Source: Daphnia pulex
Taxonomy: Eukaryota > Arthropoda > Branchiopoda > Diplostraca > Daphniidae
Assembly (NCBI RefSeq): GCF_021134715.1
Contig: NC_060027.1
Span: 2,852,001 to 2,916,000, forward strand
Reading direction: 5' to 3'
DNA length: 64,000 bases
In this document: piece by piece, positions 5,689 to 31,004 of the stretch
Layout: every line of letters begins with the position of its first letter
Position numbering within the stretch: the stretch's first letter is position 1
Program-made: the position numbers and the translations under genes
Notes under the pieces: generated by a model
What the model saw: only the letters and a program-made list of their open reading frames with translations
What the model was told of the DNA's origin: nothing
Databases searched by the model: none

Positions 5689-6607
5689 ATGGACCCACCA
5701 ACAATCGTAAGTTATGACAGGAATAAAGTATTGGGCGTGGGTATTTCCGCACAAGTATTCGCTGGCCAATTTAATGGAGAGCAAGTTGCTGTCAAAAGGA
5801 TTCTCAAAAGAGCAGATTCCGATTTGGACCAAGAATTTCAAAACCGAGAAGAACAGACCATGAAGAATCTAAAACACGAGAACGTTCTCAAACTGATAGA
5901 TGTCCAACAAGACATGGACTTTAAGTAAATAATATAATTTAAGAGCTTTGAATAAATTAAGTCTGCTTCAAATTTTATGAACTATCTGTTAAAGGTATCT
6001 GATACTGGAATTATGTATTGCAACAGTCAACGATTACATCAAAGGAAACTATAAAAGGGAGATGCCCACCGAGATCGATGCGTTGATTCAAATGGCAAGC
6101 GGATTGGCTTACATCCACTCCCAATGTTTGGTCCATCGAGACATCAAGCCGGCCAACGTGTTGATTTCTCAATCGATTGTTCTAAAAATTTCCGATTTCG
6201 GAGTCTGTCGGCCCGTGACAAGTTCCGGCAGTTTCTCGATGACTAGTGGCCCAAAAGGCACCCGCATCTATTACTCGCCTGAATTCATCGAATCCGAGGG
6301 GAAAAGCAAAGAAGATAAAGAAAAAATCAGAGCTAACGTGACGATCGACATCTTCTCGCTGGGCTGCCTCTATTTCAGTTACCTCACAGAAGGCTGCCAT
6401 CCGTTTGCCAAAAATGGAGGATCGCCCGACGAGTTTGGAACTATCTCCAACATCCAATCAGATATAAAGGTTCTCGACAATGGAAAGTTGTCACCGAATC
6501 ATTACGCATTCGCCGTGATTGATGGAATGACGAAAAAAAATCCCAACGAGCGCTGGAAATTGGATGAAGTCCTAAAGATTCTAAATAACGAGAAAGAAAA
6601 GAATTAA
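5689..6607 (+). CDS. IRE1-like protein kinase, kinase domain only (copy 1)
   Basis: Two exons, 5689-5924 and 5995-6607, giving 282 residues. The whole protein is one kinase fold. It has a Gly-rich loop (LGVGISAQV, about residues 15-23), VAVK lysine at 36, HRDIKPAN with catalytic Asp at about 128, DFG at about 146, SMTSGPKGT in the activation segment, and DIFSLGC. The DFGVC and SG-x-x-GT features and the ELC-x-AT motif resemble the kinase domain of IRE1 (ERN). It ends about 20 residues after the final kinase helix, with no KEN RNase domain, no signal peptide and no membrane segment, so it should be a soluble serine/threonine kinase. The paralogs have a second intron before the DHYAY segment; here that intron is missing (SPNHYAF is continuous), suggesting intron loss. 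Confidence 0.85.
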
Positions 6608-6984
6608 TAAATTTTATCATTTTCGGGATGTCCAGTGACAAGATTTCAAAAAAAAAAATAAATGTTTAATTCAATAAACAGTTGAAATAATTCACAACAA
6701 ATTAAACTAAGTTTTTAGATGCAACAGATTCCTTATAAGTTACAAATTTACAAAGCATAAAGTTGCCAGGCTTTGAAGACAAATAAACGATGCAACAATA
6801 ATCGTCAAATAAAAAGATTGCAACACGCTTCGACACGATAAAGTGATAACGTCATTTGAGTTGGTCGCACGAGATAAAATTCTGTCTAATCTTAAATTTG
6901 TTACCGAGTTCAGTAATCGTCGCTTCAGCTCGACTCTATAGTTTGTTTAAAACTACTTGAACGGTTTTGCTTAAGGTTGTTCGA
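6608..6984. other. Intergenic region between kinase copies 1 and 2
   Basis: Contains an A-rich 3' end for copy 1, with AATAAA-like motifs near 6655 and 6674, and the upstream region of copy 2. No other feature seen. Confidence 0.5.
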
Positions 6985-7990
6985 ATGTTGTCAGCAACAA
7001 CAGAGAATGAACCATCCACCCCAAAACTACTTGGTAAAGGGGCTTTCGGTATTGTTTACGAAGGAAAATGGAATGGAGTGAAAGTTGCCATCAAACGGAT
7101 AGACAAGACGGAATTTCTAGCGTCTGATGGATCCATCACCAACGCTACAACTGCTGGACAACGAAGTGAGGAAGAGGTCATGAAAAAACTGGACCACCCT
7201 AACGTGCTCAAACTACTTCACGTCGAAATCGATAAGAATTTCAAGTAAGTGAGTTATTCTTTTTTACAAGGTCTTATTTGATAAAACTCATTTTGGATTA
7301 TAGATATTTCTATCTTGAATTGTGTCTGGCCACCATTGGAGATTATTGCAAAGGAAAGTACGCTGGGCCCATGCCACCGGAAGCAAATTCTTTACATCAA
7401 ATGGCCAGTGGATTGGCTTACATTCATTCAATCGGGTTAGTGCATCGAGATATAAAAGAGGACAATGTTCTTATATACAAATCGGCCGAAGATCGCATCT
7501 GGCTCAAGATTTCAGATTTCGGCTTGTGTAAGCTAACATCGGCTAGTGGTAGCTACTCGATGAGAAGTGGCGTCAAGGGAAATCAAAAGTTCTTTTCGCC
7601 CGAACTCCTTCAACTAGCCGACCAGCAAGCTAGGAGTTTCGATAGCGTAGTTCATCAGAGAAGTAACGTGTCGTCCGACGTCTTCGCGCTGGGCTGTCTC
7701 TTTCACAGTTACTTGACTAAAGGGAAACATCCTTTCTCCGATTCACGAGGATCATTCTTTATCCCGATTAATATTCTCGAAGGAAAATTCCACCTCGACG
7801 GTAAACGTTATCGACATTTTTCTTTTACATCAGTTTTAGATTATTATTCAACGGATATTTTGTTTGGGCAGATCAAATCAACACGACTTTCCGGCTCGTA
7901 ATCACCGGAATGATTATTCTTAATCCTGAAACACGCTGGAGTTTGGATGCCGTCGAAGTACAATTAAAACCTCATTTAATAACAAATTGA
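6985..7990 (+). CDS. IRE1-like protein kinase, kinase domain only (copy 2)
   Basis: Three exons: 6985-7244, 7304-7800 and 7872-7990, giving 291 residues. The kinase has a canonical LGKGAFGIV loop, VAIK lysine, HRDIKEDN catalytic loop, DFGLCK and DVFALGC. The first intron is phase 2, after the DKNFK-type motif, and the second is phase 1, before the last helix region (ITGMIILNPETRW), as in the sister genes. It has a longer loop before the first helix (about residues 43-60) and an insert after SPELLQL not seen in the other copies. There is no RNase or membrane part. The last exon and 3' region were partly copied to 9713-9957. ATG 6985 is the first in-frame ATG near the kinase fold. Confidence 0.85.
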
Positions 7991-8650
7991 TCAATTTAAC
8001 CAATTAGCACCGATTAGGAATATCGTGCACAGATAAAAATACAAACTTTCCCTATTACAAAATGGCAAAATAATTTCGATTCGTTTTTTTTTTTTTTCAA
8101 ATCTTTTACTACGCTTAATTAAGAAAGAGTGAGAAAACGTTCTCTCAGAGCAGAGAACCGACCTAGAAGTAATTTAAAATTTGGTTTTATTTCTACATTC
8201 CCAAAGACTCAATTTTTGACGATTTCATTTGGGCATGGTCTATTAACTAAATTAAGTAAGTAGAACATGATTTAAGGGTATTTACTATTGGGTAAAGGTT
8301 TAAGGTAAATTAGAACATGGGATCATTGAATGTAGATTTGGCAAATGCTACAACAGATGTTGCAATGTCCGATTAATTAAATTATGTTTCAAACAAATTA
8401 TAGCAAAATGCATTTGACATGCAGAACAAAACGCTAAAGTAATTTTTTAAAAACTTAGAGTGAAAACTAAATGATATCTTCACAATTACTAAATAACGAA
8501 AATTGGCTACCATAGGCTAATATTGGAAATTGGATATATATAATAATATTAACAAGACGGTAATGTGTGAAATATAATTTATATACCGGAATGTCCTAAA
8601 TGTTTAATGTTGGAATATTTTTGTAAAATGCAAATTTAAACCATTGAATA

Positions 8651-8940
8651 AGGGAATGGGTAGGTGAGTTGGATAAGTCGTCGCTTGATGGTCAATGACA
8701 TCTTGAGACCCGAGTTCGATTCCCCATGTGAGTAAAAAATACCTATACCCGTTATCGCCAGATGGCGATCCTGATGTAGGCGATCGAAGTGTCTAGCCAA
8801 CAAGGAACTAGTTCCTTCGTGCTTAAGGTGAAAGATTCGCTCTTTCAATAACCGGATTGATTTAACCGTAAAATCCCATCGCTAGAGTTGGGTTGTAGGC
8901 CTCATCAATGTTTCACGGAGTCATGAACCGTTTGACATTG
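8651..8940 (+). mobile_element. tRNA-derived SINE
   Basis: The head looks like a tRNA gene promoter. There is an A box at 8661-8672 (TAGGTGAGTTGG) and a B box at 8714-8723 (GTTCGATTCC), spaced about 40 bases apart as in tRNAs. The acceptor stem does not pair well and an unrelated body follows, so this is a tRNA-derived SINE rather than a working tRNA. The 3' limit is a guess and no target-site duplication was identified. Confidence 0.65.
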
Positions 8941-9035
8941 AAAAGAAGGTTGTTCAATTTACGCTAGAAATATCTGCTTCGTTCGCTGAGCTGAATTCGG
9001 CTTTCAAGTAGCGACTGTAACTACAGTCTCTAATA

Positions 9036-9119
9036 TCTATAGCCAGAAGGTACCGGTGTTTCGGCATACGGCTACTTGTTCGACTCACACTCGACTGCAC
9101 TATGGACTTATTGACATGT
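9036..9119 (+). repeat. Direct repeat unit A (about 80 bases)
   Basis: Starts with AGCCAGAAGGTACCGGTG and ends with GACTTATTGACATG. A second, slightly diverged copy lies at 9279-9355. The intervening stretch has an AATAAA near 9166. The pair could be part of a degraded transposon or LTR; no coding content was seen. Confidence 0.7.
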
Positions 9120-9278
9120 AGCACAGAAAGTATGTTTACTAGTTTCGGTGTTCTGCACTTGAACTTAATAAACCTGCTTGCTCTCTGCTTGGAAGGAAGT
9201 TTTCGGATTCAGGAAATCAGGAAAAATAACATTCACTTTATAACAACAGATTGTTGATGATTATAAAATCATCAACAG

Positions 9279-9355
9279 CCAGAAGGTACCGGTGTAATGG
9301 AACATACGGCTTCTTGCTCGACTCACACGACTGCACTATAGACTTATTGACATGT
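9279..9355 (+). repeat. Direct repeat unit B (about 80 bases)
   Basis: Diverged second copy of the 9036-9119 unit, with the same ends and several substitutions and small indels between them. Confidence 0.7.
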
Positions 9356-9394
9356 TCCCTTTTTGGTTTTTATCATAAATATTTTAAGAATAAA

Positions 9395-9957
9395 TACTAA
9401 CAAAATGTTTTCGACTACTTAAAAAAATTTTGTTTTTTAAGCAGTTAAAATTTTTAAGATAAGTCCAAGGAGAATCGAAGGGGAAAGAAGACGACAAATC
9501 CGACCTCGACGTATTATTATTAAGATTTTCGGCGGAAAATGAATGTATAACGAGAAAAACAAACCGCAGTTCAAAAATGTAAGAAACCTCCATTTTCCGT
9601 GCTTCACAACTCACAATTCCGGCTGTGCCGAAATTTCCATGCAATTTCTCGAGTTCATGATAAGGAATTCATCCAAACATGGCGAAGACGTCAAACAATC
9701 AAACGAAAATAAGACCACTTTCCGGCTCGTAATCACCGGAATGATTATTCATAATCCACACACGCTGAGGTCTAGATGCTGTTGAAGTACAATTAAGACC
9801 TCATCTAACAACAAATTGATCAATTAAAAAAAAAAACGTAAAATAATTTCGATTCGTTTTTTAAATCTTCAATTAAGCTTCGTCAATATTAAAGGAACAA
9901 TATAATACGTGGACTATTAAGAAAGAGTGAGAAAACGTTCTCTCAGAGCAGAGCGTG
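9395..9957 (+). pseudogene. Chimeric duplication: SDR upstream region joined to a kinase tail
   Basis: The left part (about 9395-9712) matches the region just upstream of the dehydrogenase gene (about 17160-17480). Shared landmarks are TTTTCGGCGGAAAATG, CAAACTCACAATT-like and GGCGAAGACGTCAAACAATC. The right part (about 9713-9957) matches the last exon and 3' flank of kinase copy 2 (about 7885-8157), with TTTCCGGCTCGTAATCACCG and AGAAAGAGTGAGAAAACGTT in common. The kinase piece keeps the ITGMII segment, but the conserved Trp codon region is changed. It is a fragment with no promoter or start and is not expected to be functional. Confidence 0.75.
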
Positions 9958-10030
9958 CATTAAATCTAAACTGTAAAATAAGAAGATAACCTTTTATCTG
10001 CTCACATTTCACCGTTGAACAAACCCGCCT

Positions 10031-10038
10031 TATAAAAA
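10031..10038 (+). promoter_or_regulatory. TATA box of kinase copy 3
   Basis: TATAAAAA lies 171 bases before the ATG at 10202, with no competing ORF. Placement fits a TATA promoter with a 5' UTR of roughly 140 bases. Inferred from motif and position only. Confidence 0.45.
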
Positions 10039-10201
10039 CCAGATTGTTATCAAAATAGGGGAGGAGATAAGTATATATTCCTATTAAGATGAAAATGTAA
10101 AATGACTAAGTTAGTTCTTTCTCCTGTGTTGTGGCACTTGTGGGAACGACGGTGAAAATAAAGACGCAACTACCTGCAGCACTGGATAGGCGGAAACAAG
10201 A

Positions 10202-11403
10202 ATGGAAGCATCCGCATATCAAGGTACGAAAGAAAATGTTTACAGTTCTGTCAAGCCTTAGCAATGACGTCTGAAAGTCCACTGAGTTTTGTAAATTGTT
10301 ACGTCAATAATGATTACACGGCGAGCTGTTTGAAAAGAAAAAAGTTTGTAACCACTTCGATTCCATAGACGGACAAGTCCCAGCGGCTGCAGTACTGCCC
10401 GATCTAGAAGAAACCGTCAAAATTGACATCAAGAAAAACAAGCTGCTTGGTAAAGGCAAATACGGGTCGGTTTTCGAGTGCACTTTTAAAGGAACGACTG
10501 TGGCCGTCAAGAGATTGCAACTACTCGATTGTGATGATGCTGCCAAAACAGAGAGAATGCGGGAAGGGAACGCCATGACAAATTTAATACACCCTAACGT
10601 TCTGAGACTCATTGCAGAGCAAGAAGACGACAATTTCAAGTAAACATAGATATCGCAGACTTTCCATTTGATATTAACCCATTAACTAAGAGTTTCTTGG
10701 AATAATTTAGATACCTTATTTTGGAGCTTTGCGTTGCGACGGTCGACGATTACATTCGAGGAGATTATTCAGGCCAGATGCCTGCCGAGGTCGATGGGTT
10801 ATTTCAAATGACCAGTGGATTGGCTTACATTCACTCCAAACGCTTCGTTCATCGAGACATCAAGCCGGCCAACGTGTTGATTTCTCCGAGATTTGTCCTC
10901 AAAATCTCCGATTTCGGGTTCTGCAAGACCGTGACCAATTCCGGAAGTTTTTCGACCAGCAGCGGCCTAAAAGGCACTCCAGCCTACATGGCCCCGGAAT
11001 ACCTGGAAATGAAAGGCAAAAGCGAAGATGAAATTAAAGCAATCAGAGCTCGTTTGTCGCTCGACATTTTTTCGTTGGGCTGCGTTTTCTTCAGTTACAT
11101 CAAAAAAGACAGACGTTGTCATTTGTTTCAAAACCCGAAAACCAAAGATTTTTTCTCGATCATTTCCAACATCGTTAAAGGCAAAAAGTTTTTAGAGGGG
11201 GGTGAGTGAATCTGTAATTGTTCAAAGAGTATTAATTGGTTAACGTTCTCTTGGTATTTGTTTTTCTTTCAGAAATTGCTGGAGATCACTACGCATACAA
11301 ACTTATTGACGGGATGACCCACAACAACCCCGAAATGCGTATGGGCTTGGATAAAGTGATCAGTGCACTGCAGCAACTGCTACCCTCACAAGAACAAGAA
11401 TAA
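10202..11403 (+). CDS. IRE1-like protein kinase, kinase domain only (copy 3)
   Basis: Four exons: 10202-10223, 10345-10639, 10711-11201 and 11273-11403, giving 312 residues. The first exon is only 22 bases (MEASAYQ plus one base), exactly like that of the pseudogene copy at 29885, which supports the start. Kinase signatures are LLGKGKYGSV, VAVKR, HRDIKPAN, DFGFCK, a SGLKGT activation segment, MAPEY and DIFSLGC. The C-terminus is a short Gln/Glu-rich tail right after the last kinase helix, so there is no KEN RNase domain. All catalytic residues are present. The acceptor of exon 2 (after AAAAAAG at 10344) is weak but gives the correct phase. Confidence 0.85.
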
Positions 11404-12908
11404 AATCATATAAGCTGCTGCTGTAATCAAATCTAACGTTTTAAAAAATCTGTTTTTGTTAATCTACGAGCAGTTCTATTATTAACCATATACGTACTTG
11501 GTGCTGAGTCAAAGAATAACGCCTTCAGTTCATCGACCATTAAGTACTACAGGTAGGCCTACAGGGCCGTTTCCACTCAATACATGCACAACAGAGGCAG
11601 TATTGACATGACTGTTGGCATGCATCTGATCTAACGATTTTGGTAATACCGGAACCATTTGCGAAGATTATGGCATTGCTTATTGCTAGCCTATAAGCAA
11701 TTATGTATTAAATACTCCTAAAATTGCAAATACATTTGCAGGACTTCAAAGGGCACTCATGTTTTTCTCCAGATTTTATCTTAGGACTAGATAAACTGTA
11801 TGGGGATACTTACAAAATTTTAGTAACAGTTGTCAAGCTTGTTTGAATGGATGAGAGAAGATTGTGAAAGCAGAGACTGAATTTGAGAATCAGAAATGTA
11901 TGTGGTGAAAGGTAAGTTTTTAATTTAATCTTTGGACACTACCTGAATAAAACCTGCTTATCACAGAATGAGAGACCAGAAAACAAGAACACAAGAAAAA
12001 TACTTGTGCAGCTGTGACGTGGGATTGTAAAATGCCTTTAACAATATATCTTCATCTGATTTGAGAGCAGAACAAGATTTTACCTTTCAGCCCAATAAAA
12101 TTACATTTCTGACAAGGATACCAAATTGTCTATGCAAGGGGAAACTACTTTGAACTTACTTCAATCAAGGGAAGAAAACTAGGCCTAGACGCTAGATCAT
12201 AATAATCCCAACAAAGACATAATCGACAGTGGCACATTTTCAAATGTTAAGGAAATGTGTGGAACTTGTCAAAGAGGAATACAAATGATGTCAAATAGTG
12301 TTTAAAATTATACCAACAGCCATAAATCATTGACACTTTCCTGTTCCCAAGCTTTAACAAATCTTCTACACAGTACGTCCTACATCAATTGGAAGTTGGT
12401 AAATTGGTTGGAAATTACCTTTTTCAGTTCAAAGCACAAAGCTTGAATAGATGCAATATACTATTTGGATAACTACGCCCACAGAATAACAGATTGAATA
12501 ACACAATAAAATGTTATTTCAGTACTTTTTCAGGGTCAGGGTTGTACAGTCAAAGTGTCTAGCCATATTCTACTGCTACTTGCTACGTCATGAAAAAGCT
12601 CATGATGGCGCGGACGAAGACAACGTTTGCCAAAACCCAAAGCGTTTTGGCTAATTATAGGCTATGGTCCGACACAGCACACAGCCATTCACAGGATGTG
12701 TGACGTTCAGTCCAGTCCCAGGCCGCCAGGGGACTTTCAGGCCAGTAAAAAAAAAATTATTTTGAATGTGATGTATGAAAGAATGAATGAATACATAGAG
12801 TCTGAATAAAAAAATGCATAATTTTTTGCTCGTGCGAGATGTTCGGGCTCGTGCGAGATGTTCAAATCAAGGGTCGTGCCAGAGCCAGAGCCATTAGCCC
12901 GTTACTTA
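11404..12908. other. Intergenic region, no gene seen
   Basis: About 1.5 kb of AT-rich sequence. A 60-codon ORF at 12627-12809 has no recognisable features. No repeat or RNA gene could be supported. Confidence 0.5.
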
Positions 12909-13032
12909 GGTTCATAAAAATGCCGCCGCATACAGATGGCGTTTGGTTGTTTGTTTTCCATGTTGTTTTCTTTGTTTTCTTAACTTTTCAACAACCAAAC
13001 GCCACCTGTATGCGGCGGCTTTTTTATGAACC
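12909..13032 (+). repeat. Long near-perfect hairpin (foldback, 43-base arms)
   Basis: Left arm 12909-12951 and right arm 12990-13032 are reverse complements at 41 of 43 positions, separated by a 38-base loop. The arms begin with GGTTCATAAAAA and contain GCCGCCGCATACAG. Arm length and identity suit a small foldback MITE or a hairpin small-RNA precursor. No clear target-site duplication flanks it. Confidence 0.85.
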
Positions 13033-13740
13033 AGAGTGGAAAAAAATTGTTTTCAGCGAACTTAAACAATGAATAACTTAAGAGCTATTAAATATTTTTC
13101 AAAACGACTTTTAAATTAAATTTAGGAAAATTGATATCTTAACTAATTTTGTACAAAAGATCAACATTTTAGAAGAAATACATGACTAGATATAATGAGT
13201 TTACGGAGGGACTATCCGCCATTAAGGTCCCTTGTAAACACCTTTTGATGATTTCATAAAATTTGAGGCATAGTCCCTCACAGTATATTTAATTACTGAA
13301 ACATCGTTAAAGCTATAACATTAAAATTGGATCTCTGATCAATAAAAAGACGGGGAACATTTATTAGCTGTAAAAAAATTATTTTTATTTCTTATCACAA
13401 TTCTAATACATTTTCTAATTTTTACATTTTTTTTCTATTTTTTTTATAGTAAAAATTATTATTTCTGAGGAGGGTTTTTACAACAAATATAAAATTATAG
13501 TAATAACAAAGCTCATGAAAAACATTTCGTGTTGCAATTTGTTCCCGGTAAACCCCCTTTTTTCATATCTTGACTCCACTATTGACTATACGCTCCAACA
13601 AAACTGACAGTTTCTGTTTCACCCATCGATCTCCCGCAGTCCATCGGCGTTTCAGTTAGCGTATCCTTCAACATCGTCATCACCCCTTCGGATCATGAAC
13701 AACTTGCTGAATGGAGTTCTAGGTATGATATATCTCGGTG

Positions 13741-13932
13741 CCTATCCGGGAAGATACAGTGGAACTCCGTCAACGGGCTGTTATCCCAGTTGCCCAAACT
13801 GTTCCGTTAGTTCCATACTCATCCGATGATGATCGTGAAGACGTGGAAGATAACGAACAGTACAACTGGCATTTTTGGGATTCAGCATTGAGGAAGTATG
13901 GAAATTATGAAAAAATGAATGCAGCAACTTAA
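13741..13932 (+). other. ORF of unknown function, perhaps an exon of a decayed gene
   Basis: An open frame of about 64 codons ending in TAA at 13930-13932. It has an acidic stretch (SSDDDREDVEDNE) followed by a W-x-F-W segment. Its last residues, MNAAT, are also the last residues of the HP1-like remnant ending at 16684, so it may belong to the same decayed family. No start codon or splice acceptor could be assigned with confidence. Confidence 0.3.
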
Positions 13933-14617
13933 CAATTTAAAATGCTAGGCTACTTATTACAAATCCAATCAATTTTCTGATGCATTTCACTCTCTGTAAA
14001 TAACCAAAATTTATTAACTTTATAAATCCAATGTCCTGACATTTTTTGTTTGAAGAAGAAGAACAGCACTTATTTATGTAACTATATTACTGGCGTTACC
14101 CCCAAAGTTCATTTTATAATTTTACCTATTCCGGGTTATTATGGATTATTATTCCATTAAACCATTATAATTAGTGAATAGACGGATGTGCAAAGGGTAG
14201 AGCGAGCTTGGAGGGGGGGGGGGTGAAACCCAGAGTAAGCATTTTGCATCTTGCTTGACGATAATGTTGGAAAGTTCTTCTCCTCGGTGTACCTCTGCGA
14301 TCGATGTTAATTTATCGTGTAAAATTAGGAGGCGGACTAAATTAATTGTTGTACAAAAAGTCAAATGAAACAAATAGCAGCTTTGCTTTCCAAATGCATG
14401 AGCACTTTGAGCAGGTGGCCTTTGCGTACTTATAGGTTTACTTGGGTGGGGCAAAACAAATAGAGGAAGGGAAGCCAAACGTTTCGGCTAAATACAGTAG
14501 GGCAGCAGCCCAGAGCCCGACAGCCATTCACAGATTTAACCCCGTGATAGTAGTTCGCTTTCTACCAACTTTGCCGTTAGATAGCGTTTGCAATCAAAGC
14601 AGAAAGCACGTTATTAG
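13933..14617. other. Non-coding stretch before the BEL/Pao remnant
   Basis: Includes a G-run at 14212-14223. No gene, repeat or RNA supported. Confidence 0.4.
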
Positions 14618-14985
14618 TTCTGCGACGCCAGCGAGATAGGGTACGGAGCTGTAGCCTATGAAAAGCAAGGGACAACTATCGCCCTCACAGCAGCAAAATC
14701 AAAAGTGGCGCCATTGCCCAAAAAAGCATTGCTGACCATCCCTCGGATCCAACTGCTGAGCAACCTGATGGCGTCAATACTTATCAAGTATATCCGAGAC
14801 CAACATCGGATAGATCATAAAGCGCACATCTGGTCTGATTCACAGATCGCCACATGTTGGATAACAGCCGCCAACAAAACCCCTCGAAGATCAGAGATTT
14901 CGGCGCAGTGATCCATTTCTGCGAAGGGACACAGAACCTGGCTGACCTTCTCTCACGAGGCGGAGAATGGAAAAATGTTGACTGA
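14618..14985 (+). mobile_element. BEL/Pao LTR retrotransposon pol remnant
   Basis: The frame opening with FCDASEIGYGAVAY and continuing through TAAKSKVAPL, IPRIQLLSNL and WSDSQIATCWI is the end of a BEL/Pao reverse transcriptase and the start of its RNase H. After a gap in frame, FCEGTQNLADLLSRGG follows, the conserved BEL/Pao N-x-AD-x-LSRG motif. The copy is truncated at both ends, lacks the stretch between the two motifs, and is frame-broken. No LTR is visible nearby. It abuts an HP1-like remnant at 14996. Confidence 0.8.
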
Positions 14986-14995
14986 TAGACTTGTC

Positions 14996-17542: not shown

Positions 17543-18566
17543 ATGACCGAACGTTTGGAAAAAAATGTACGCAAAGTTGTCCTCATCACAGGTAGGCCTA
17601 AATCATCCATAACCGTAAATTGTCACAATTAATTCGAAAGTAAAATTTTCATCCTGCAGGATCGAGTTCGGGGATTGGTGCGGCAGCGGCAATCCAGTTT
17701 GCAACTTTAGGCTACCGGATGTCTTTGTTCGCCATGAATGTACCGGTGGACGAAGCTGGACTGGCCGACACAAAAGATCGATGCCTGAAAGCCAATCCTG
17801 AACTCACCTCAGATGACGTAAGTGGCGATCCCATTTGCATATTAGTAAACGTGTATTGAAAATTGAAACTTATACATTTTGCAATCAGATCCTAACGATG
17901 ACTGGCGATTTGACTGTAGAGAAAGATTGCCACCTGTACATCGAGAAAACGTTCGAAACTTTCAAGAGAATTGACGTCCTGGTGGCCAACGCGGGAATCG
18001 TCAGCGGCAGTCGACTGGAAAACCTGAAAATGGAAGACTTTGACAAAGTGATGAATATCAACTGTCGAGTGGTTGTCCTAATGAATAAATTGGTCATCCC
18101 TTATCTGGCCGAAACCAAAGGAAATATTGTCAACGTATCTAGCGTGGCCGGATTGCGTGCGGTACGTGCAATATCCTGATAACAAATTCCGACAAATTCT
18201 GAATAATTGATTTGAACTTTGATTGTTAAAATATAGTGTAACGATATGATTGCGTACTGTATGAGTAAAGCTGCCGTTGCCCAATTAACTCGTTGCGCCG
18301 CTTCCGAATTGGCTTCCAAAGGAATTCGGGTCAACGCCGTTTGTCCGGGCCTTATCGACTCCACCAGGATCTTTCAAAACGCCGGATTCTCGACCGAGTT
18401 CCACGACTTGATGATAGAACGCGTGAAATCCTCCCACCCTCTCGGTCGAGCCGGAACCCCGGAAGAAGTTGCCAAATCCATCGCTTTTCTGGCCTCCGAA
18501 GAACAGGCTTCATTCATGACTGGAGTCACTTTGCCAATTGATGGGGGACGTTGTGTCTCGTCATAA
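17543..18566 (+). CDS. Short-chain dehydrogenase/reductase (classical SDR)
   Basis: Four exons: 17543-17591, 17660-17817, 17889-18161 and 18237-18566, giving 269 residues, the usual classical SDR length. The N-terminal TGSSSGIG is the Rossmann cofactor loop. NAG (VLVANAG) stabilises the sheet, VSSVAG carries the catalytic Ser, and YCMSK is the Y-x3-K pair. The PG motif (VNAVCPG) and C-terminal GVTLPIDGG are typical of FabG-like oxidoreductases. No signal peptide or membrane segment, so probably cytosolic. The loop after the first strand (SLFAMNV) lacks an obvious Arg for NADP, so NAD is possible. The substrate cannot be told from sequence. Confidence 0.92.
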
Positions 18567-19264: not shown

Positions 19265-20267
19265 ATGACCAAATTGTATCCAAACACAGTTCAAACAGCG
19301 CCGATCATGACTTTTGAGAGGAATAAAATCCTGGGGCGAGGCACCTTTGCATGCGTCTTTTATGGAACGCTCAACGGATTACCAGTGGCCGTCAAAAGAA
19401 TTCAACTCCACGATCTGGAAGAATCAATTCACAGGGAAGAGACGGCGATGAGACAATTAGACCACCCGAACGTTCTCAAACTCCTTCACGTCCAAGAGAA
19501 CGAAGATTTCAAGTAAGTTGCAAACTGATAACGAAGTCTAACTCGTGACCAAACGTACCCATCACCTCTTAAATGAATAACAGATTTCTCGTGCTGGAGC
19601 TGTGCGAGGCCACTATCGACGATTACATCCGGAGGAGATACATGGCAGACAACATGCCATCCGATTGCGACGCCCTACATCAAATGGCCAGCGGCGTCCA
19701 GTACATTCACTCCAAAGGATTCGTCCACCGGAACGTGAAGCCGGAGAACGTGCTCATTTCAACGTCTGGCGTCCTGAAAATCGCCGATTTCGGTTTCTGC
19801 AAACCCTTCCGGCCGTCCGGAAGCTTCTCGATGACGAGCAGCGGTCCCAGGGGCACCCGGATATACTGCGCCCCGGAATTCCTGCAGCTGGAAGGCAAAA
19901 GCAAAGAGGAGAGGGACACCATTCGATGTGACGTCTCCATCGACGTCTTTTCACTGGGCTGCATGTTCTTCTGTTACATCAAAAAAGGTGATCACCCGTT
20001 CGCCAAACCGGGATCGCCAATCACCTACGCCATCGCCAGCAATATCGTTTACGGAAAGAAATACTTGCACCTCGGTGAGCAGTCTATTAATAAATTTAAT
20101 GCGAATGATTTGAGAATAATTGATTTGTGACTGGTTTTGGTTTAGCATTAATGCCGGATCACTACGCCTACGAAATGATTGACGGAATGACGCAAACTGT
20201 CCCGCAGGATCGCTGGACGTTAGAACGAGTAATTGAAACTTTGACAACACACTTGACCAATACTTAG
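19265..20267 (+). CDS. IRE1-like kinase with HRN catalytic loop, likely pseudokinase (copy 4)
   Basis: Three exons: 19265-19512, 19584-20074 and 20146-20267, giving 286 residues. Intron phases match the sister genes. The fold is complete: LGRGTFACV loop, VAVKR lysine, DFGFCK, SGPRGT, APEF and DVFSLGC. The catalytic loop reads HRNVKPEN: the Asp codon is AAC at 19732-19734. Asn here normally abolishes phosphotransfer while ATP binding remains possible, so a scaffold or regulatory role by dimerisation, as known for IRE1 kinase domains, is plausible. The frame is open and splice sites are good, so it looks maintained rather than decayed. No RNase domain. Confidence 0.85.
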
Positions 20268-20964: not shown

Positions 20965-23900
20965 ATGGACTCGTTTAATGGTAATCATCCTTTTTCTATT
21001 AATTTGATTCAACAAAAATATTTATTTCCTCATCAAACTTATTCAAAACTCGTTTTTCTTCATTGTTAAAATATGATATCAAATAATGTCATCTTACATT
21101 CATTATTATTTGATTCATTATATCGTGATTTTAAAGCCGAGTCACGTGTTTCGATCGCTTCGGTAACGGCTCGATTCCAACCAACCGGCGGCGGTGTCCA
21201 AGTGTACAACGTCCTCTACTTGCCGTCGTTGCAAAACGTGTTGAGCACCAGTTTCAAAGACGCCTCACTCGAGTCGACTTATCAACGATATTCACACTGG
21301 CAGCGCCAGAAATCGCTGATTGTCGTCAACGCCATTGACGTTGTTCTCAAAATCATCACCGCCGTGCTTGTTGTAACGCACCAACTCGGGAATTCCCCCG
21401 GGACCCATGTCAAATGTCCTACGTCGTCCGAGTGCTACTACAACAATTCGTCGGGTTCTAATCAATCACAAGGAGAAGAAGAATTCCCAACTAAAACTGT
21501 GATTTGTGCGTCTGGTTTGATTCTATTGAACCTCGTGATTTTTTCGCTTACCGTTTGTTGGAAAAGTTTCGCTCGTAATTACCTTCACCTGGCCGCCCTG
21601 GCCACTTGGCTCCTCATGAACTTTCAAGGTAAAAAAGTTGAGAATTAAATTCAAAATTTGTTTTTTTCGCGCCAGTTTATCACATAAACAAAAGTATCTG
21701 GGTGTTAATCCATTCCATTGTTTTTATGTGTGTTGATTAGTTTTTGTAGGTCTGGCCTTTGAAGAAATTGGTGGCACCGGTGTGCAACTTACCTCGCACA
21801 TGGTGTGGTACATCTTATTCATCATATTCGCCACTTACGTCATGTTGCCCTTGCCACTTTTATGGGCCGTGTTAGCGTCTGGAGCTTCAGTTGTTATCCA
21901 TCTTATCACTTTCCTTGTGTTGGTCATTATTAATCCGTCGTCTCCTTGGGAGGTAATGTATAAAGATATCCTTGTTCAAACAATAACAAAACACAAATCC
22001 TGTCGACTGCTGTCAATCAAATCCAATTATTTCATCCATACTCGACAGAACGAACACTGCATTGCGGTCAGCAGCTGCGCCGATTTGGTCCTCTACATCG
22101 CCATGAATTTCGCCGGATTGTACGCCAAATACCTGACGGATCGGGCCGGAAGGAAAGCCTTTGCCGAGACGTGGCGATCCTACGAAATTCGTTTAAAAGC
22201 AGAAAGGGAAAATGAGAAACAAGAAAAGTTGCTATTATCAGGTCTGTGCTGGATGTTGAAGATTGAAAATTTCGTATCTGAACTGCTGTTTTTTACAGTG
22301 TTGCCACCATTTTTGGTTGCCGAGATGAAACGATATTTCGAGCAAGAGGACAAAGTTGATGTCAATCGCAACGGGAGCGTCGTCGTTCCCAAAGTGGTGG
22401 AAGCTTCGATAGCGGCGGCCGTGGCCGTCGTCGCCTCCGATCCCGTCCCGCAAACCTTCCACAACATTTTCCCTCACCATTTCGACAATGTCTCCATTCT
22501 TTTCGCCGACATCAAAGGATTTACAGGTGAGTCTTTCACAAAATTAAAAAAAATGGATATAACTCAATTTTCATTTCATTTTTAATTCTATCAAATAGAA
22601 TTGGCTAGCAAATGCACTGCCCAGGAACTGGTTCGAGTGTTGAACGATCTCTTTGCCGAATTCGACCGAATCGCCCAAGTATAAATTTTTTGTTGTTTAT
22701 TTTTTATTACGTCATTATTTTTAACCCAATAAGTTTTTATACTGAAAGGAAAATCACTGTTTGAGAATCAAATTGCTGGGCGATTGCTATTACTGCGTTT
22801 CTGGGCTACTAGAAGCTCGATCCAATCACGCCGATTGCTGCGTCAAAACGGGACTGGAGATGATTAAAGCCATCCAATTCGTCCGCCAGAGAACTCAGGT
22901 GTGTTATTGTATTCAATCATTATAGACACACCCATTTGAATCATTTAAATATGTAGGTGGAATTGGACATGAGGATCGGCATTCATTCTGGCTCCGTTCT
23001 ATCCTGCGTCCTTGGCCTCCACAAGTGGCAGTTCGACGTTTGGTCGAATGACGTCACCCTGGCCAATAAAATGGAATCGGGCGGCCTTCCCGGGTAGGTT
23101 AAATAATTCAACAGTTATTGATCACCTATACACACGTGTGTTCATGTTTCATCCAGGCGGGTTCACATATCAAAGGCCACGCTGGATTGTCTCGTTGATA
23201 CTTACGACGTCGAGCCAGGCTACGGCGCCACTAGGGACACTTATTTAAAGGTTAAAAATAGCCAATAAGGAATTATTAATTGCGAATCATGACATGCGGT
23301 GCTACCGCTCATTGTGGACATGTAGGAACACAAGGTGGAGACTTACTTGATCGTCGATAAGCAACACGTGAAGCAACGGCTCAAACCTAAACGACAGAGT
23401 CTTCGTCAACTTGTGCTGGAACGTCGGTCCAATACTTCTTATTCGAAATTTGACATTCAAAGGGACAAAGAAGAGGAACTCAACACAATCATAAGGAATC
23501 AAACAGCTGAGAATAGCCTCGTTCCAGTTGCTTCTATTAAAAGACTGTCCGTAGAAGAAGACTCGATCATCTTGGACTCTAACCGACCACTGCCCAGCTT
23601 CAGGATCACTATTGACGACGTTAAGACTACTAAATCTGACAAAGTATGCATCCTTTCGCTTGATTTATTATTGAAATTAAATTATTTAAAAATTTTTTGA
23701 ACAGAATGAAGACCAGATTTCGATTGGCGACATCTCCGATGACGATGAGTCTCCACATCACCTGCAACTTTGCGGTGCGCCATCGTTGACCTCATTGTCT
23801 TCCGCCAGTGAGTTTATTCCGTATCCGATGAGTTCCTCATTCCGGAAGGATCGCCTTTCCGTCGACAGTGGCAGCTCTCAAAGAGTCTCGATTGAGATCC

Positions 23901-26504
23901 CTGTACAAATGTTGAGCCTTCAAGAGGAAGTGGATCAAATCATCGATGATTCAATCGAAATGGATTCCATCAAGCAGATTCGTGACCAACATGTCCATCC
24001 TTTGACTCTACAATTTTTGCTGCCCGACATGGAATCCACCGTAGTTTTAATTAGTACTCTTATATAATTATTACTATTTTAATTGTAATTATTTCATGCT
24101 GTTTTTAGTTCAGCAATAAGCGGGAGAACATTTACAAATCTAACGCCTTCAGCGTCTTTATTATTTGGATTCTGCTAGCCGCTTCATTACTCATTGCAAT
24201 CCCGATGTAATTAATACCATTTAAATTAAGTATAATAAAAAAAGAAGACGATTTCTAATTTATTTGGGGGATTGAATTAAGGACGGTGGGTTTATGGGTC
24301 ACCGCAGCTTCGGCTACCATCATTTTGACAGCGGCAGTCATTTTGGCGGTGGCAGAAGAACTACCTTGGTTACCTGCCATTTGGATGAAACGAGTTTCCA
24401 ATAAATTGACAGAAAACCGGACCCTGCGCAACTTGTACATCTGTTTCATCGTTGGCATCATCTTCTTAGCCACTATTATTAATATGGTAAAACTAAAACC
24501 AAATTCCACATAGCATTCTGCGCTTATCCTCTTTTGTTAATTTTTTCCAGGTTTTATTTGCGGACTACATGGCACATCTACAAGTGCCGGTCTACCACCT
24601 GGAGAGTCAAAACAATTTATCAGAGGCATCTCGATCGAATTTTACTATTACTTCCGCTTTGAATGATACCATTGTAAAAGCGACGTGTCTGCTACCTCAG
24701 TATCAGATGTACACCTGGGTATTGGCTATGGTGTGTCTGGGTACATTTCTCAAATTGAGTTACATCATCAAATCAACCGTTCTACTTGTGATGGCCATCG
24801 TTTACACGATTCTGATGACGGTAGTTTACCCGGAAGTCTTTGGTGAGATTCAGGTAGACGTTTTCAATTATTTTCTATTTTTTATTGAATTAAAAAAAGG
24901 AGGTTTTATGTATTTCCAGGGAGACTTTGAGATGTACGCGACGGAACGATGGTCTATGCTGGTCCTGATCCTCCTCTTCTTTTACGTTGTGGGTTACCAG
25001 TCGCGTTTGGTGGAAGTCAATTCTCGGCTGCACTTTCTCGGCAAGCAGCAAGTCGATCAAGAGTTGAATGACATTTCCGAAACGCGGAAATACAATACCC
25101 AATTATTGAAAAACATTCTACCCGACCATGTGGCGAATTATTTTTTGGCAACCGAATCCAACCAACGGAAAAACGATGCAAGTATTTCTATTTGATTGAT
25201 CTTCTTTTTGTCATTTGAATAACGCGCCCTTTTTTATACAGGATCTGTTCTCGCAAGCTAAAGACGGTGTAGGTTGCATGTTTGCCAGGTATTGATTATT
25301 CATTACTCAGCCTAATTAATTATCGATTATTTATTACCTTGATTTTATAGCATCCCCAATTTCAGCGATTTCTACTCGGAGGATTTAGGAGAGGAATGCA
25401 TCCGCTATCTCAACGAAATCATAAGTGGGGTCATTTTATTACTGTCAGATTTCCATTTCACGCGGACTATAATTAATATTGAAAATTCCAATAATTAGTT
25501 GATTTTGACGAACTGCTAGACGACAGCCGGTTTTCCTCTGTTGAAAAAATCAAGACCATTGGCTCTACTTACATGGCCGTCTCCGGACTCGTCAATCAAA
25601 CCGAGTTGGACCCATCAGCTAATAAAGTAAGCCATAATAACCAGCTTACAGATATTAAATAAATAATTAAAGCTAAATCCTGATTTTACCAGGGAAACCA
25701 GCACGATGAATACTGGCATCTTACAGCTCTGACTGATTTCGCAATGGCTATGAAGGACCGTCTGGACGAATTTAATCGCAATTATTCCAAAAATTTCCAA
25801 CTGAGAGTTGGTGAGCTTATTAATGTGTAATACGCCTAAAAATTACTAACGGTTTATTTTACTCACTTCAAAATAAAAGGTCTAGCTGTTGGTCCGTTAG
25901 TGGGCGGAGTGATTGGCGCTGGTAAACCCGTGTTCGACGTTTGGGGCAACACGGTGAACGAAGCCTCGCGTATGGATTCAACCGGTCAAATGGGCAAGAT
26001 TCAAGTCACCCGTGACGTCTACCAGGTAATAAAGATCATTAGAATAAAATGAATCCTTTTATTAAAAAATAATCCTGTGATATTGTTTCGAAACAGATTC
26101 TGTCTGAACGAGGATACAAGCTGCAGTCGCGTGGTTTCGTTCAAGTCAAAGGCAAAGGTCAAATGGAAACTTACTTTGTATTGGGCAAAGAAACGAGTTC
26201 GACAACGGGAATCGTCCGACAGCAGCCGTCCGTCCGAAGTTCATGGGCCGCTTTCGTCTACAGAATGGCCTCCCGAAATCACTCGACAACTGCGAGGGCG
26301 ACAACTCGACGAGAAGTCGGCCCAACTGCTGCTGCCCAAAAAACCGCATTCTCCCGATTGAGAACTTTCCCGACTAGACCACCCCGCCCACACACGACAA
26401 AGCCTCATTCAGGCGGGTTCATTAAGGCTGGCCTTCATCCAAAGGGTAGGGAGAACACTAGCCATGTTGTCTCGCCTTTAACCAGACCATTTTCTGCACG
26501 ATAA
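20965..26504 (+). CDS. Transmembrane (class III) adenylate cyclase
   Basis: Twenty-one exons closing in frame to 1,343 residues, a normal length for this family. The protein makes cAMP from ATP at the plasma membrane and is usually controlled by G proteins. Order: a short N-terminus, a first membrane bundle (about 21300-22160), C1 catalytic domain with both metal-binding Asp (FADIKGFT and LGDCYYC) and WSNDVTLAN, a Ser/Asp-rich linker, a second membrane bundle (24109-25030), and C2 domain with [19 protein letters not shown], and the catalytic Asn and Arg in [13 protein letters not shown]. Both halves look active. The C-terminal tail is basic and Ser/Thr-rich. The first coding exon is 16 bases (MDSFN). 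The intron after 25177 is GC-AG. The subtype (AC1/5/8 versus AC2 groups) is not resolved. Confidence 0.92.
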
Positions 26505-27660
26505 CATTCTTAGAACTTGGAAAGCTTCTGCCACCAATCGCATCTTCCAAATAGTCGACTTGACCGAGATCCAGTTAAACCGGAGTTGAGAGCAGGCCCT
26601 GGACATTCTTCGCCATCGAATAACGTTGGGGTGAAATCAAACAGACGACTTTATTCCAGGATCGCACGTTGAAATGCTTAATATTTATGTGTAAATGAAT
26701 AATTGGGTTGATAAAATCAAGCATGTATAGTGTAGCGCCTATTTTTATTTACACTTGGTTATTTTCCAGTTCGTTTGAAATCTCGAATGTGTTATGTGAT
26801 AATGTGAGATCTTATTGTGGCGGTCTTAAAGTAATTATCTACGTGGTAGGCAGGCTCAGTGTAATTTGATAAACAATAGATACTAAAATAATCCCGATCC
26901 GATCAGCGGATGTCGAGTGCGGGTGAGAAAACCGCTTTGATCGTTTTTTAAACGGTTTAGATTTACGCGGGAAGTTGAGTCGATTTTTAAGCATTTCAAT
27001 CGATATCTTAAATTTTGATTTAGCGTCGTCTGCTAAATTTTAATAGTGTGTCATTCAAAAATGTGCTCGTCTCGAATCGTCGTCTCCAACTTGGCTCGTG
27101 GCTCGTTGCTCGTTGCTCATCTTTACAGAATCACTGTAAGACACAATCCATGCTGTTGAGCAGGTAAATAAAACCAAGAATATAAATAGAATGATTGTTG
27201 GAGCTTAAATAAAAGTGAAACCTGTTCCGAAGTTGTGAAATGTTAGTTCCAGGCTACCATTTATCATGTTAGCCCCCATTTTGATGCATGGCAGTTTGCT
27301 TGCAATAGAACCTTTTTCTTTGTGCAGATTGAGGCCTGAAATGGGCCTGATCTGAGCCAGCCATCATAACAACATGATAAACCCATGGTATTACCCTGTC
27401 ATGAGCAACAATCTAACTATCATCGCTATAGGGTGTGATGTTTTGTGTTACTTTTGTTCTTGCGGCATGCTAGATACTTTTACTGATGCATGGCTTTCAT
27501 TAATGCAGTATTACATGAAATTACCCGCTGTCTCAATTTTAACTTTCCTAATAACTATTGTTTCTGTCAATATTGTTTTGTAACCCATTTTTTTATCATT
27601 TATTTAGATAAACAGCATCCAATTGGATTGGAAAAATTCCCCTTTCTTTAAATCAACTCT

Positions 27661-27704
27661 GTCCTCGTGTACACCCATGTGAGTGTGGGTGTATTCACGA
27701 GGAC
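27661..27704 (+). repeat. Short strong hairpin
   Basis: Left arm 27661-27677 (GTCCTCGTGTACACCCA) pairs completely with 27686-27704 except for a two-base bulge. The loop is 8 bases. Too short for a usual animal pre-miRNA, but strikingly stable. Confidence 0.7.
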
Positions 27705-28241
27705 CCCTTTTTTCCTATCCTGGCTTATTCATTTTTACTGCGGATGGATGGAATGGAGCACTTGTGGATTCCTGGTCGTATTTTCCAGGCTTAAAGGTAG
27801 GGCAAATGCATCACTATTCTTCCTCTTTGACTGTTTCTATGACGTATAGTACGGAATACGATTATTATCTGATTCGTGCTGGTTGGAACTCTTTTCAGTG
27901 TATTTGTTGACTCAGTTAGGGTTCATTCAAAAACTCAATTGTGAAACGACTGCAGATCAGGCCCTGTTTTGTGCTCCACAACTTTGTTTGTGGGTCTAAA
28001 CAATCAGATTCGCAAAATATGTTAACCTTTAATCAATTAAAACAAGCTTAAGTATGGCCAAGAGGAACCTTCCGCCACACCGACATATCTTATCATCGTG
28101 TAAGTTAAATTAAGCTGACGACAACGGTTATAATGTATAACTGGCAACAGATTACACAACCACTGATTCGTATTCAAGATATCGGGAAGGAGGGAGGGCG
28201 GAGAGGCGGTTTACAAAGACCAAGAAGGTAACCTGATAAGC

Positions 28242-28248
28242 TATAAAA
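28242..28248 (+). promoter_or_regulatory. TATA box of kinase copy 5
   Basis: TATAAAA lies about 30 bases before a possible start site. A UTR exon would end at CTTCCAG/GTAAAT (28378) and splice to the acceptor at 28565. This leaves ATG 28589 as the first ATG of the second exon. Confidence 0.4.
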
Positions 28249-28588
28249 GTGTTCATTGCGCCAATACGGTTTAATTTAAACAGAGATCGATGTGGCGAGA
28301 ATACTTTGGCACATCGTAACAATTGTCTCCCGTGTTTGGTTCAGTCCCGAAAGCTTCTACACTTCCAGGTAAATTGTTTAAGACAACAATCAATTTATCC
28401 CCGTTTAGTTTTAGCTTTTAGTAGCGAATGTGTGTAAAAGTCATAGTAAAAGAATATGGAACTGTATCATTTTTTTTTATCAGACTGATAAAAATCAAAT
28501 GCTGTTGCTTTAAGCAGCTTGTACTGGTTGTTCACTCGCTTTCTGTTTGTCTTTGCAAAATATAGACGGACGTACCAACGGAGCTGTA

Positions 28589-29621
28589 ATGCTGCAATAT
28601 GACAGGAGCAAAATTCTAGGGAACGGCACATTTGCTACCGTCTTTTGGGGCACTTGGAATGGAGAGGCCGTGGCCGTCAAACGAATCGAAATGCACAAAT
28701 TGAATAAAAGATTCAAAGACAGGGAAGAGGTAGCCATGCGACAAATGAACCATCAAAACGTCCTAAAACTCAAGGAAGTACAGGAAAATGAGGATTTTAA
28801 GTATACAATTATTTACATTATGTCTCGAATGATTTATAATCATTTCTCTAAATAATCTAGATTACTAATTCTAGAACTCTGCATTGGAACGGTGCGTGAT
28901 TACGTCAACGACGTTAACGACGAGAAAAAGTTCAATCAAAAGATGCCGATCGAGGTTGAAGCGCTGATACAAATGACCAATGGGCTGGCTTACATCCATT
29001 CCCAGCATTTTGTCCATCGTGATATCAAACCGGAGAACGTCTTGATATCCTCCTCGTATGTGTTGAAAATCTCTGACTTTGGAGTCAGCAAGCCCACACA
29101 GCCGACCGGAAGTTTCTCAGTGACTAGTGGCCCTCAAGGAACGAAAACTTACTTTGCTCCGGAATATCTGCGACTAGAGCATCAAGAATCGCAGGAAAGA
29201 AAAAACATCAGAGCGGACAAATCGATCGACATCTTTTCTTTGGGCTGCCTCTTTTTCACTTACATAATGAGAAAGGGGCCGTACGCTCACCTGTTCGCAA
29301 CACCAGGAATGCAGTTCAATTCCAAAGAAAACTACGACATTGACGTCACTAATAATATTCTCATGGACAAAAAGTTTCTAGAAAAGAACGGTAAAATTTA
29401 ATTAGCCAACGTTTTAGCGGTAGTTTCAATTATTTGTTTTGGTTTAAGGACTATCAAAGGGACACTACGCGTTTAAAATGATTGACGGAATGACCAAAGC
29501 CAAGTCTGAGGATCGCTGGGGCTTGGACGAAAAGAAATTTGGTTCCAACTCTCAGACAGTTATTGAAACTCTGAAACTAGAACAACGACGTCAAAATGGA
29601 CCGAAGCAGACCGTAGTGTAG
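28589..29621 (+). CDS. IRE1-like protein kinase, kinase domain only (copy 5)
   Basis: Three coding exons: 28589-28800, 28861-29390 and 29449-29621, giving 304 residues. Kinase motifs are LGNGTFATV, VAVKR, HRDIKPEN, DFGVSK, a SGPQGT activation segment, APEY, and SIDIFSLGC. All catalytic residues are present. It shares with copy 6 a longer segment after the GTV-x-DY motif (NDVNDEKKFN), the DFGVSK variant and a Gln-rich basic tail, so these two form a subgroup. The start is the first ATG in the exon; the frame stays open upstream to the acceptor at 28565, and a coding first exon like that of copies 3 and 6 cannot be excluded. No RNase domain. Confidence 0.8.
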
Positions 29622-29884
29622 AGACCCAACATAATTTTTTTTAAATAACAATTCAACTCGCATAATCTGAAAATATAATAATTCAGTGGCCTCACAGTGT
29701 GCTATCTTAATCTAACGTTTTATCACCTATCATGCTTAAAGGTCAAATTTAGATGTACAATTGTAAAGCCATCCCTATTAGATAAGATTGATATCTAGTC
29801 GTAATGCTTTCTAATCAGATGACATCGGAAAGGAGAAAACGGAGGAATAAACGGTGCAACGTTGTGCGGCTCTGAAACAAGAAC

Positions 29885-31004
29885 ATGGAAACATCTGAAT
29901 CTGCAGGTAACTTTTACCCAATGTAAAAACAAATAATTCATCCTAATGCGAGTGATTTGTTTACTGGACTAGGGATTCAAGGAAAAGTCTTACAGTATGA
30001 CAGACAAAACATGTTGGGGAAAGGCACGTTTGCAGCCGTCTTTTCGGGCACTCTGGATGGACAGCCAGTCGCCGTCGAACGAATTCTCCTGTACAATTTG
30101 AATAAAAATTTCAAAACCAGGGAAGAAGCTGCCATGAGAATAATGGATCACCCCGAACGTTCTGAAACTGCTGGACGTTAGAGAAGATGCCGATTTCAAG
30201 TGATATTTATCAATTCTACTCTGAATAATTTTCTATTATGACGTTATTCTATATTTGTAGGTATTTGATACTGGAAATTTGCATTGGGACTGTCCGCAAT
30301 TACATTGACGGTGATGAAAAGTTTAGCGGTAAAATGCCGTCCGAGATTGAAGCTTTGTGGCAAATGGCCAACGGGCTTGCTTACATCCATTCCAAAGATA
30401 TTGTCCATTGAGATATCAAGCCAGACAACGTGCTCATTTCTTCCTCGTTCGCTCTTAAAATCTCCGACTTTGGTGTCAGCAAACCCACCCAACCAACCGG
30501 AAGTTTCTCTTCAAACAGCGGCGCCAAAGGAACCAGGATTTACTACGCTCCGGAGCTATCTGCGACTGGAAGACAAGACCCTCTCCCCGGAAGAGAAGAA
30601 AACCATCAGAGCGGACAAATCGATCGACATCTTTTCTTTGGGTTGCCTCTTTTTCAATTACATAACCAGAAAAAGCCCTTACAATTATGTGTTCGCCACG
30701 CCCAAAAAGCAATACTACTCCATTGACGATTTCACCAGTGACGTCACCACCAACATCCGCAATGGGAAAAAATTTCTAAAAGACAATGGTATAAGTTGAT
30801 GCCTTCATTAAAAATGGTAAACTGTTTAACAATTTCTTTGCTTTTAACTTTCAGGACTACCCAGTGGGCACTACGCTTTTAAAATGATTGACGGAATGAC
30901 CAAAGCCGATTCCAAAGATCGTTTGGGATCGAATGAAAAGAAAACTAGGGTCTAACCCTGAAACAGTAATTGAAATTCTCAAGAAAGAAAAGAAAGAAAT
31001 GTGA
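29885..31004 (+). pseudogene. IRE1-like kinase pseudogene (copy 6)
   Basis: Tandem duplicate of copy 5 with the usual exon plan (29885-29906, then three more exons), but broken several times. The ATP-binding lysine is Glu (VAVE, codon 30077-30079). A four-C run at 30151-30154 shifts the frame at HPNVLK. The HRD Arg codon is TGA at 30409-30411. One extra base near 30556 breaks the PEY segment. The last exon shifts again at the DRW motif near 30920. The splice sites are still recognisable, so inactivation is recent on the scale of this family. Confidence 0.9.

Follow-up and report, generated by a model that had tools for sequence, protein, structure and literature searches.

A multiplied family of IRE1-type kinases without detected RNase or sensor parts in the genome of Daphnia pulex

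Six kinase loci, all on the plus strand and spanning positions 5689-31004, are present in a window of 64,000 nucleotides of the Daphnia pulex genome (the whole stretch analysed here; NCBI RefSeq assembly GCF_021134715.1, contig NC_060027.1). The window corresponds to C11:2852001-2916000 in the contig labels used below for this genome of 133,188,837 bases in 13 contigs. Five of the loci, K1 to K5, look intact and the sixth, K6, is a pseudogene. The observations are probably best explained if IRE1-class protein kinases underwent a radiation specific to this lineage, of which K1-K5 are members. IRE1 itself is regarded as a widely conserved and usually single-copy sensor, in which the kinase serves the attached RNase. 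A preliminary description of the window had presented the six loci as a cluster of IRE1-like kinases; they account for a minor share of a large family, most of which is arranged in tandem.

About 130 family loci were found on eight contigs (117 in a first search and 13 in a second), with 55 loci on C3, 41 on C11, 17 on C10, 7 on C12, 4 on C8, 3 on C5, 2 on C7 and 1 on C6. The number is approximate since the assignment of weak matches was judged, some loci are broken or partial, and the best 150 candidates were scored per search. Weak fragments were left out, as were matches judged to be conventional kinases or members of the IRE1-related group PK2 discussed below. Using gaps of less than 50 kb as the definition of a cluster, 104 of the 130 loci fall into 22 clusters, 19 of which are single-strand. 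The cluster to which the window loci belong extends beyond the six first described and comprises 14 loci, all on the plus strand, at C11:2769691-2882579. As a check for horizontal transfer, a scan of viral contigs yielded 20 loci of 25-37% identity and the best 80 of 576 relatives in a genome collection had 27-34% identity, with no close relative in either set; these were short-pattern scans, by which absence is unproven.

The family kinase domains appear to be of the IRE1 type because the ranking within the genome, a profile search of the PDB, the trees and a shared intron agree. When the kinase domain of the genome's own IRE1 was used as a query (245 candidates, of which the best 150 were scored), the next matches after IRE1 itself were K3 (86.1 bits), K1 (84.7 bits) and K2 (81.9 bits). 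Kinases of conventional type scored about 38 bits or less, and a few intermediate matches are unclassified. Among the best 60 of 1903 PDB sequences matched by a profile of 11 family members, the top 16 were IRE1 sequences (205.9 to 175 bits), followed by scores of 151.8 and then 130. Thirteen of these 16 scored 202-206 bits and three 175-180 bits; we take the former to be human and the latter yeast IRE1.

In a tree of 102 rows, the 80 family rows, two IRE1 rows, five PK2 rows and a second KEN-containing gene located on C4 were separated from 14 further kinases of D. pulex by a split with support of 97/93. The family rows were derived from 83 spliced models, of which two pairs share one first exon each; four poor or chimeric family models were dropped, one SRC-like model was reassigned to the comparison kinases, and two further family rows were added. 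After rooting on four bacterial kinases, with six rows omitted (the C4 row, three short comparison rows, one near-duplicate and one degenerate family row), 999 of 1000 bootstraps joined the family with IRE1 and PK2, and 971 of 1000 recovered the family by itself. A kinase-domain phylogeny had been proposed as a check in the preliminary description, and it gave no placement with another kinase family, although two topology tests considered below did not reject a position with the tyrosine kinases (TK).

The intron structure points in the same direction. The IRE1 intron is of phase 2 and lies within the lysine codon of FKY, and that of the C4 gene is identical in place and phase. In 80 of the 83 models (one of them SRC-like) the hinge motif is preceded by an intron at a distance of at most 8 residues; the offset is that of IRE1 in 77 and the phase is 2 in 75. 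At the hinge itself, E-x-C occurs in 79 of the 80 family rows, compared to 2 of 12 comparison kinases in which both positions are covered.

The ATG-to-stop spliced models of K1, K2, K3 and K5 (Table 1) encode proteins of 282, 293, 305 and 304 amino acids, respectively, and K4 has an open frame across the aligned kinase domain, its start and stop being read by eye. The K/D/D catalytic residues are kept in four of the five intact-looking genes, the exception being K4, where HRN replaces HRD. K6 is damaged by two frameshifts, a TGA within HRD and a replacement of the VAVK lysine by E. The IRE1 type of the loci is supported, as first described, but one is a pseudogene and another lacks the catalytic Asp. 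The motifs that had been ascribed to every copy are shared in part, as read from the models: ELCxAT/GT occurs at the hinge of K1-K5 (EICIGT in K6), SGxxGT in all but K2 (SGVKGN), and DIFSLGC in K1, K3, K5 and K6 (DVFALGC in K2 and DVFSLGC in K4). The intron plan, also described as common to all, is so for the first intron, which has one position in the six loci, but K1 is without the second.

In agreement with the preliminary description, these genes showed no KEN domain, membrane helix or lumenal part in the searches made. A membrane helix is not indicated in the four models scored (K1, K2, K3 and K5), where the maximal 19-residue Kyte-Doolittle mean is 1.25. Of the lumenal side of IRE1, the one exon searched (105 amino acids, not the larger lumenal exon) is present in the genome as a single copy. 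The Pfam KEN model PF06479 matches three exons in the whole genome, two of which belong to IRE1 on C1 and one to the gene on C4, and the KEN exon of IRE1 as a query retrieves the same two genes, that on C4 at 31% identity (E 0.0185). A hidden KEN near the family genes was rejected in view of these searches, which both match C1 and C4 alone; since the C4 domain was detected at 31% identity, an equally diverged KEN adjacent to the window genes would have been expected to show up. The canonical IRE1 gene, with kinase and KEN, is present at about C1:1.954-1.958 Mb.

The C4 gene (C4:1978000-1987999, minus strand, at about C4:1.983 Mb) combines a kinase-like domain, in which HGN takes the place of HRD, with a divergent KEN. 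Its KEN active-site positions look altered by eye and those of IRE1 intact, given the residue roles that we assume for this domain. In the stretch C4:1978000-1987999 no ankyrin or membrane part was noticed. The PK2 group consists of five IRE1-related loci (C12:5.06 and 6.92 Mb, C1:1.68 Mb, C5:2.78 Mb) which group with IRE1. All five have HRN for HRD, with DFR or DFS for DFG, and its members are probably pseudokinases.

The K/D/D triad is kept in 59 of the 80 family rows; the other 21 are without the full triad in the alignment, some of them through gaps. At the positions of human S724 and S729, which we take to be the activation-segment positions of IRE1, Ser or Thr is found in 72 and 67 of the 80 rows, respectively. 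The ratio of nonsynonymous to synonymous substitution (dN/dS) was 0.19-0.50 in the 20 scorable pairs among 24 hand-picked ones; the scored sister pairs evolve under purifying selection. The remaining four pairs showed synonymous saturation; three of them compare window copies with each other, and one compares a window copy with a neighbour. The window copies look old because dS is saturated in four of the five pairs that include a window copy and is 1.68 in the fifth, K3-K4. As this is the single window pair that was scored, the constraint on the window copies rests on K3-K4 and on the open frames.

Several observations, some on the gene copies and others on the trees, weigh against a radiation of working IRE1-class kinases. 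The position of D620 of human IRE1 is D in 39 of the 80 rows, and that of R627 is K in 67 and R in 2. These residues, which presumably have a role in human IRE1 dimers, are not strictly kept and therefore IRE1-style dimers may not form. No KEN was found at the family loci with PF06479 or with the genome's own KEN exon, but a more diverged or fragmented KEN could escape both. Apart from K6, several other copies are broken by stops or frameshifts. Such decay would be expected under neutral birth and death, where tandem copies mostly degenerate and the array has no special function, and the strong clustering of the arrays and the 21 rows without a full triad agree with this. However, neutrality is hard to combine with dN/dS values of 0.19-0.50 in 20 of 20 scorable pairs, with the triad kept in 59 of 80 rows and with five open frames among window copies that are old by dS, and we consider this explanation quite improbable.

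The observations on the trees concern the distance to other kinase groups, for which the family labels of the comparison kinases, assigned from their sequences, are our assumption. In approximately unbiased (AU) tests, joining the family with TK was not rejected with 37 rows (p 0.11) or with 100 rows (p 0.161). Joining with NEK-like (p 0.00036), CAMK (p 0.00016) and CDK (p 0.0031) kinases was rejected in the 37-row test, and joining with the one tyrosine kinase-like (TKL) kinase sampled was weakly rejected (p-AU 0.033). In this subset of 37 rows the branch of the family and the IRE1 group reached just 91/90, under the tool's star. The tool also flagged long branches for TK and TKL rows, as well as three bacterial rows whose composition is odd. 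The comparison set, assembled from long open frames and the nearest non-family matches, is small and biased against introns. A family of TK/TKL type, with its likeness to IRE1 due to convergence, would fit the AU results and the position of the TK and TKL rows, which adjoin the IRE1 group in the rooted tree. Yet no bootstrap grouped the family with the TK and TKL rows taken together (0 of 1000, versus 999 of 1000 with IRE1 and PK2), and the shared phase-2 intron, the E-x-C hinge and the PDB ranking also argue against convergence, which makes this alternative highly improbable. The preliminary observation largely holds, though it underestimates the size of the family, and the placement of the kinase domains with IRE1 is supported, with the reservation that the AU tests do not reject TK.

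Whereas the window members are kinase-only as described at the outset, the wider family is not. Downstream of many kinases on C3 and C12 there is an open frame made up of 37-residue ankyrin repeats. One such frame gave an Ank_4 match of 2.8e-34, and 111-base tandem arrays were present in all three loci tested. By regular expression and table reading, the ankyrin frame lies 2-655 bases past the modelled C-lobe exon in five of five C12 rows and in at least 18 of 52 C3 rows; we infer that the kinase and ankyrin exons are spliced together. No such frame was found beside the 19 family rows of C11 outside the window, within 464-3426 bases downstream. The regular expression detected no convincing ankyrin in the window either, with a lone, chance-like match at one of the six loci and none at the other five.

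A member at C3:159742 (C3:153000-162000, minus strand) seems to continue into long open frames of 234, 202 and 333 amino acids and perhaps represents a third architecture. Its C-terminal region gave no Pfam match above the cut-off, and the one piece searched against the PDB gave no match below E 1. On the plus strand of the same stretch, at its positions 8395-8793, there is an open frame of 133 amino acids without a Pfam match above the cut-off, which contains RNVFTH, a sequence that in our view resembles the Rx4H motif of HEPN RNases. PF18731, which is linked to the HEPN expansion in Daphnia, gave zero matches, as did the controls.

In view of the above, the following history and mechanism can be considered for the proposed radiation. 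A copy of an IRE1-type kinase without the lumenal, membrane and KEN parts would have been multiplied by tandem duplication to about 130 loci, the KEN being lost rather than primitively absent. One portion of the family is linked with C-terminal ankyrin repeats, as shown by the adjacent open frames. The products could be soluble Ser/Thr kinases that, like IRE1, self-associate and become active when they trans-autophosphorylate the activation segment. Their output would be phosphorylation alone because no nuclease appears to be attached. Kinase-only members such as K1, K2, K3 and K5 may serve as signalling subunits, whereas in the ankyrin-tailed members the tail may bind a ligand or target, and members without catalytic residues, such as K4, could be allosteric partners.

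It is also conceivable, though rather unlikely, that the family mainly modulates canonical IRE1. In this scenario the soluble kinases would enter oligomers of IRE1, which they would phosphorylate or dilute, with a dominant-negative or priming effect. The window members are the closest matches in the genome to the IRE1 kinase and have kept the activation segment, and a KEN with the active-site residues that we would expect is found in IRE1 alone, that of the C4 gene appearing altered by eye. Hetero-oligomerisation of IRE1beta with IRE1alpha has been proposed as a mechanism of dominant-negative suppression, according to the available part of PMC8528705. On the other hand, about 130 copies, many of them beside ankyrin tails of varied length, are difficult to reconcile with a single regulated protein, and the interface positions are not strictly kept.

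The birth-and-death pattern hints that the radiation of IRE1-class kinases could form a stress or immune repertoire; the modulation of stress signalling put forward in the preliminary description is likewise hypothetical. A further step, which we regard as doubtful, would be that the IRE1 kinase has given rise to an extensive repertoire of intracellular receptors and signalling proteins. Members with ankyrin tails would sense variable ligands, kinase-only members such as those of the window would relay and catalytically altered members would regulate, with phosphorylation as the output and with or without feedback on canonical IRE1. Such a system would amount to RNase L-like signalling reduced to its sensor and kinase half, with the nuclease missing and about 130-fold multiplication. 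Should the ankyrin-tailed branch indeed serve immunity or stress, arthropod biology would gain a kind of receptor. More generally, IRE1-class kinases without RNase at about 130 loci, under purifying selection in the scored pairs, would uncouple kinase signalling from the nuclease, which would make the family a natural experiment on the purpose of IRE1 kinase activity.

Table 1. Exons and loci of the six kinases in the window (positions counted from its first nucleotide)
Feature	Position	Strand	Basis
K1 exon 1, N-lobe, ATG at 5689	5689..5924	+	spliced model
K1 exon 2 to stop, C-lobe, second intron lost; 282-residue protein	5995..6607	+	spliced model
K2 exon 1	6985..7244	+	spliced model
K2 exon 2; HRD and DFG kept; activation segment SGVKGN	7304..7806	+	spliced model
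K2 exon 3 to stop; 293-residue protein	7872..7990	+	spliced model
K3 possible short first coding exon	10202..10224	+	inferred from splice signals by eye, then translated
K3 N-lobe exon; exon start inferred	10367..10639	+	spliced model
K3 C-lobe exon	10711..11201	+	spliced model
K3 last exon to stop; 305-residue protein	11273..11403	+	spliced model
K4 N-lobe exon; ATG at 19307 read by eye; extra upstream exon possible	19307..19512	+	
K4 C-lobe exon; catalytic HRD changed to HRN	19584..20074	+	alignment
K4 last exon to stop	20146..20267	+	alignment to 20243; stop read by eye
K5 N-lobe exon	28589..28800	+	spliced model
K5 C-lobe exon	28861..29390	+	spliced model
K5 last exon to stop; 304-residue protein	29449..29621	+	spliced model
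K6 pseudogene, relics of the common three-exon plan	30002..31004	+	alignment reaches 30928; end as in the preliminary description

Other features of the window include a DUF4470 match (PF14737, 1e-22) at 4400-4804 within 411-4807 on the minus strand, where the frame at 411-917 also looks DUF4470-like by eye. The end of 1684-2733, on the same strand, looks to us like a MYND zinc finger. On the plus strand, a short-chain dehydrogenase frame is present at 17817-18179 (2.7e-21), and a weak match to a ligand-gated channel, below the cut-off, at 32458-32829. The open frames at 21070-26504, also on the plus strand, resemble what we take to be a membrane nucleotide cyclase; the one piece of them that was scanned gave no Pfam match. 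The G+C content is 0.511 at 52001-56000 and 0.362-0.430 in the other 4-kb steps.

When compared to known systems, the family shares with IRE1/ERN1 the kinase domain, the ELC hinge, an SFSxxSGxxGT-like activation segment, DIFSLG and the residue and phase of the first kinase intron. It differs in that a lumenal domain, membrane helix and KEN were not detected and in its number of loci, about 130 against a single one. RNase L consists of N-terminal ankyrin repeats, a pseudokinase and KEN. The family resembles it in the IRE1-class kinase domain and in the ankyrin repeats adjoining many C3 and C12 members, but here the ankyrin follows the kinase, the catalytic residues are mostly kept and KEN is missing; RNase L was absent from the trees. 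The C4 gene is somewhat like RNase L minus its ankyrin part, and agrees with the family in intron position and phase and in grouping with IRE1, whereas it keeps a divergent KEN and has HGN in place of HRD. In RIPK4/ANKK1-type kinases the kinase is followed by C-terminal ankyrin repeats. This domain order is suggested for many C3 and C12 members only, and the family kinase groups with IRE1, in a tree without RIPK. Plant IRE1C and the Dictyostelium Irl kinases are IRE1 relatives that, like the family, are without the usual sensor but, unlike it, keep the KEN RNase. IRE1beta, an IRE1 paralogue and proposed dominant-negative partner, is an RNase-bearing sensor of endoplasmic reticulum stress and not kinase-only.

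Full-text searches of the literature, with most subscription journals outside the coverage, retrieved no paper on a family of IRE1-type kinases without RNase, and the combination of Daphnia and endoribonuclease IRE1 gave no papers. The words 'kinase', 'ankyrin' and 'IRE1' are absent from the main texts of PMC12102780 and PMC13322756, and the available part of PMC4833078 has nothing on such a kinase family. According to the available part of PMC3710099, KEN has expanded without kinase in Oikopleura and monocots, and another HEPN domain has expanded in Daphnia. The KEN-only expansions are likewise lineage-specific growth of one half of the kinase-KEN pair, and the family described here is the reverse, with kinase and without KEN. 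The genes themselves may well be annotated already and the IRE1-class kinase is known; the variation lies in its RNase-less, multiplied and partly ankyrin-associated form.

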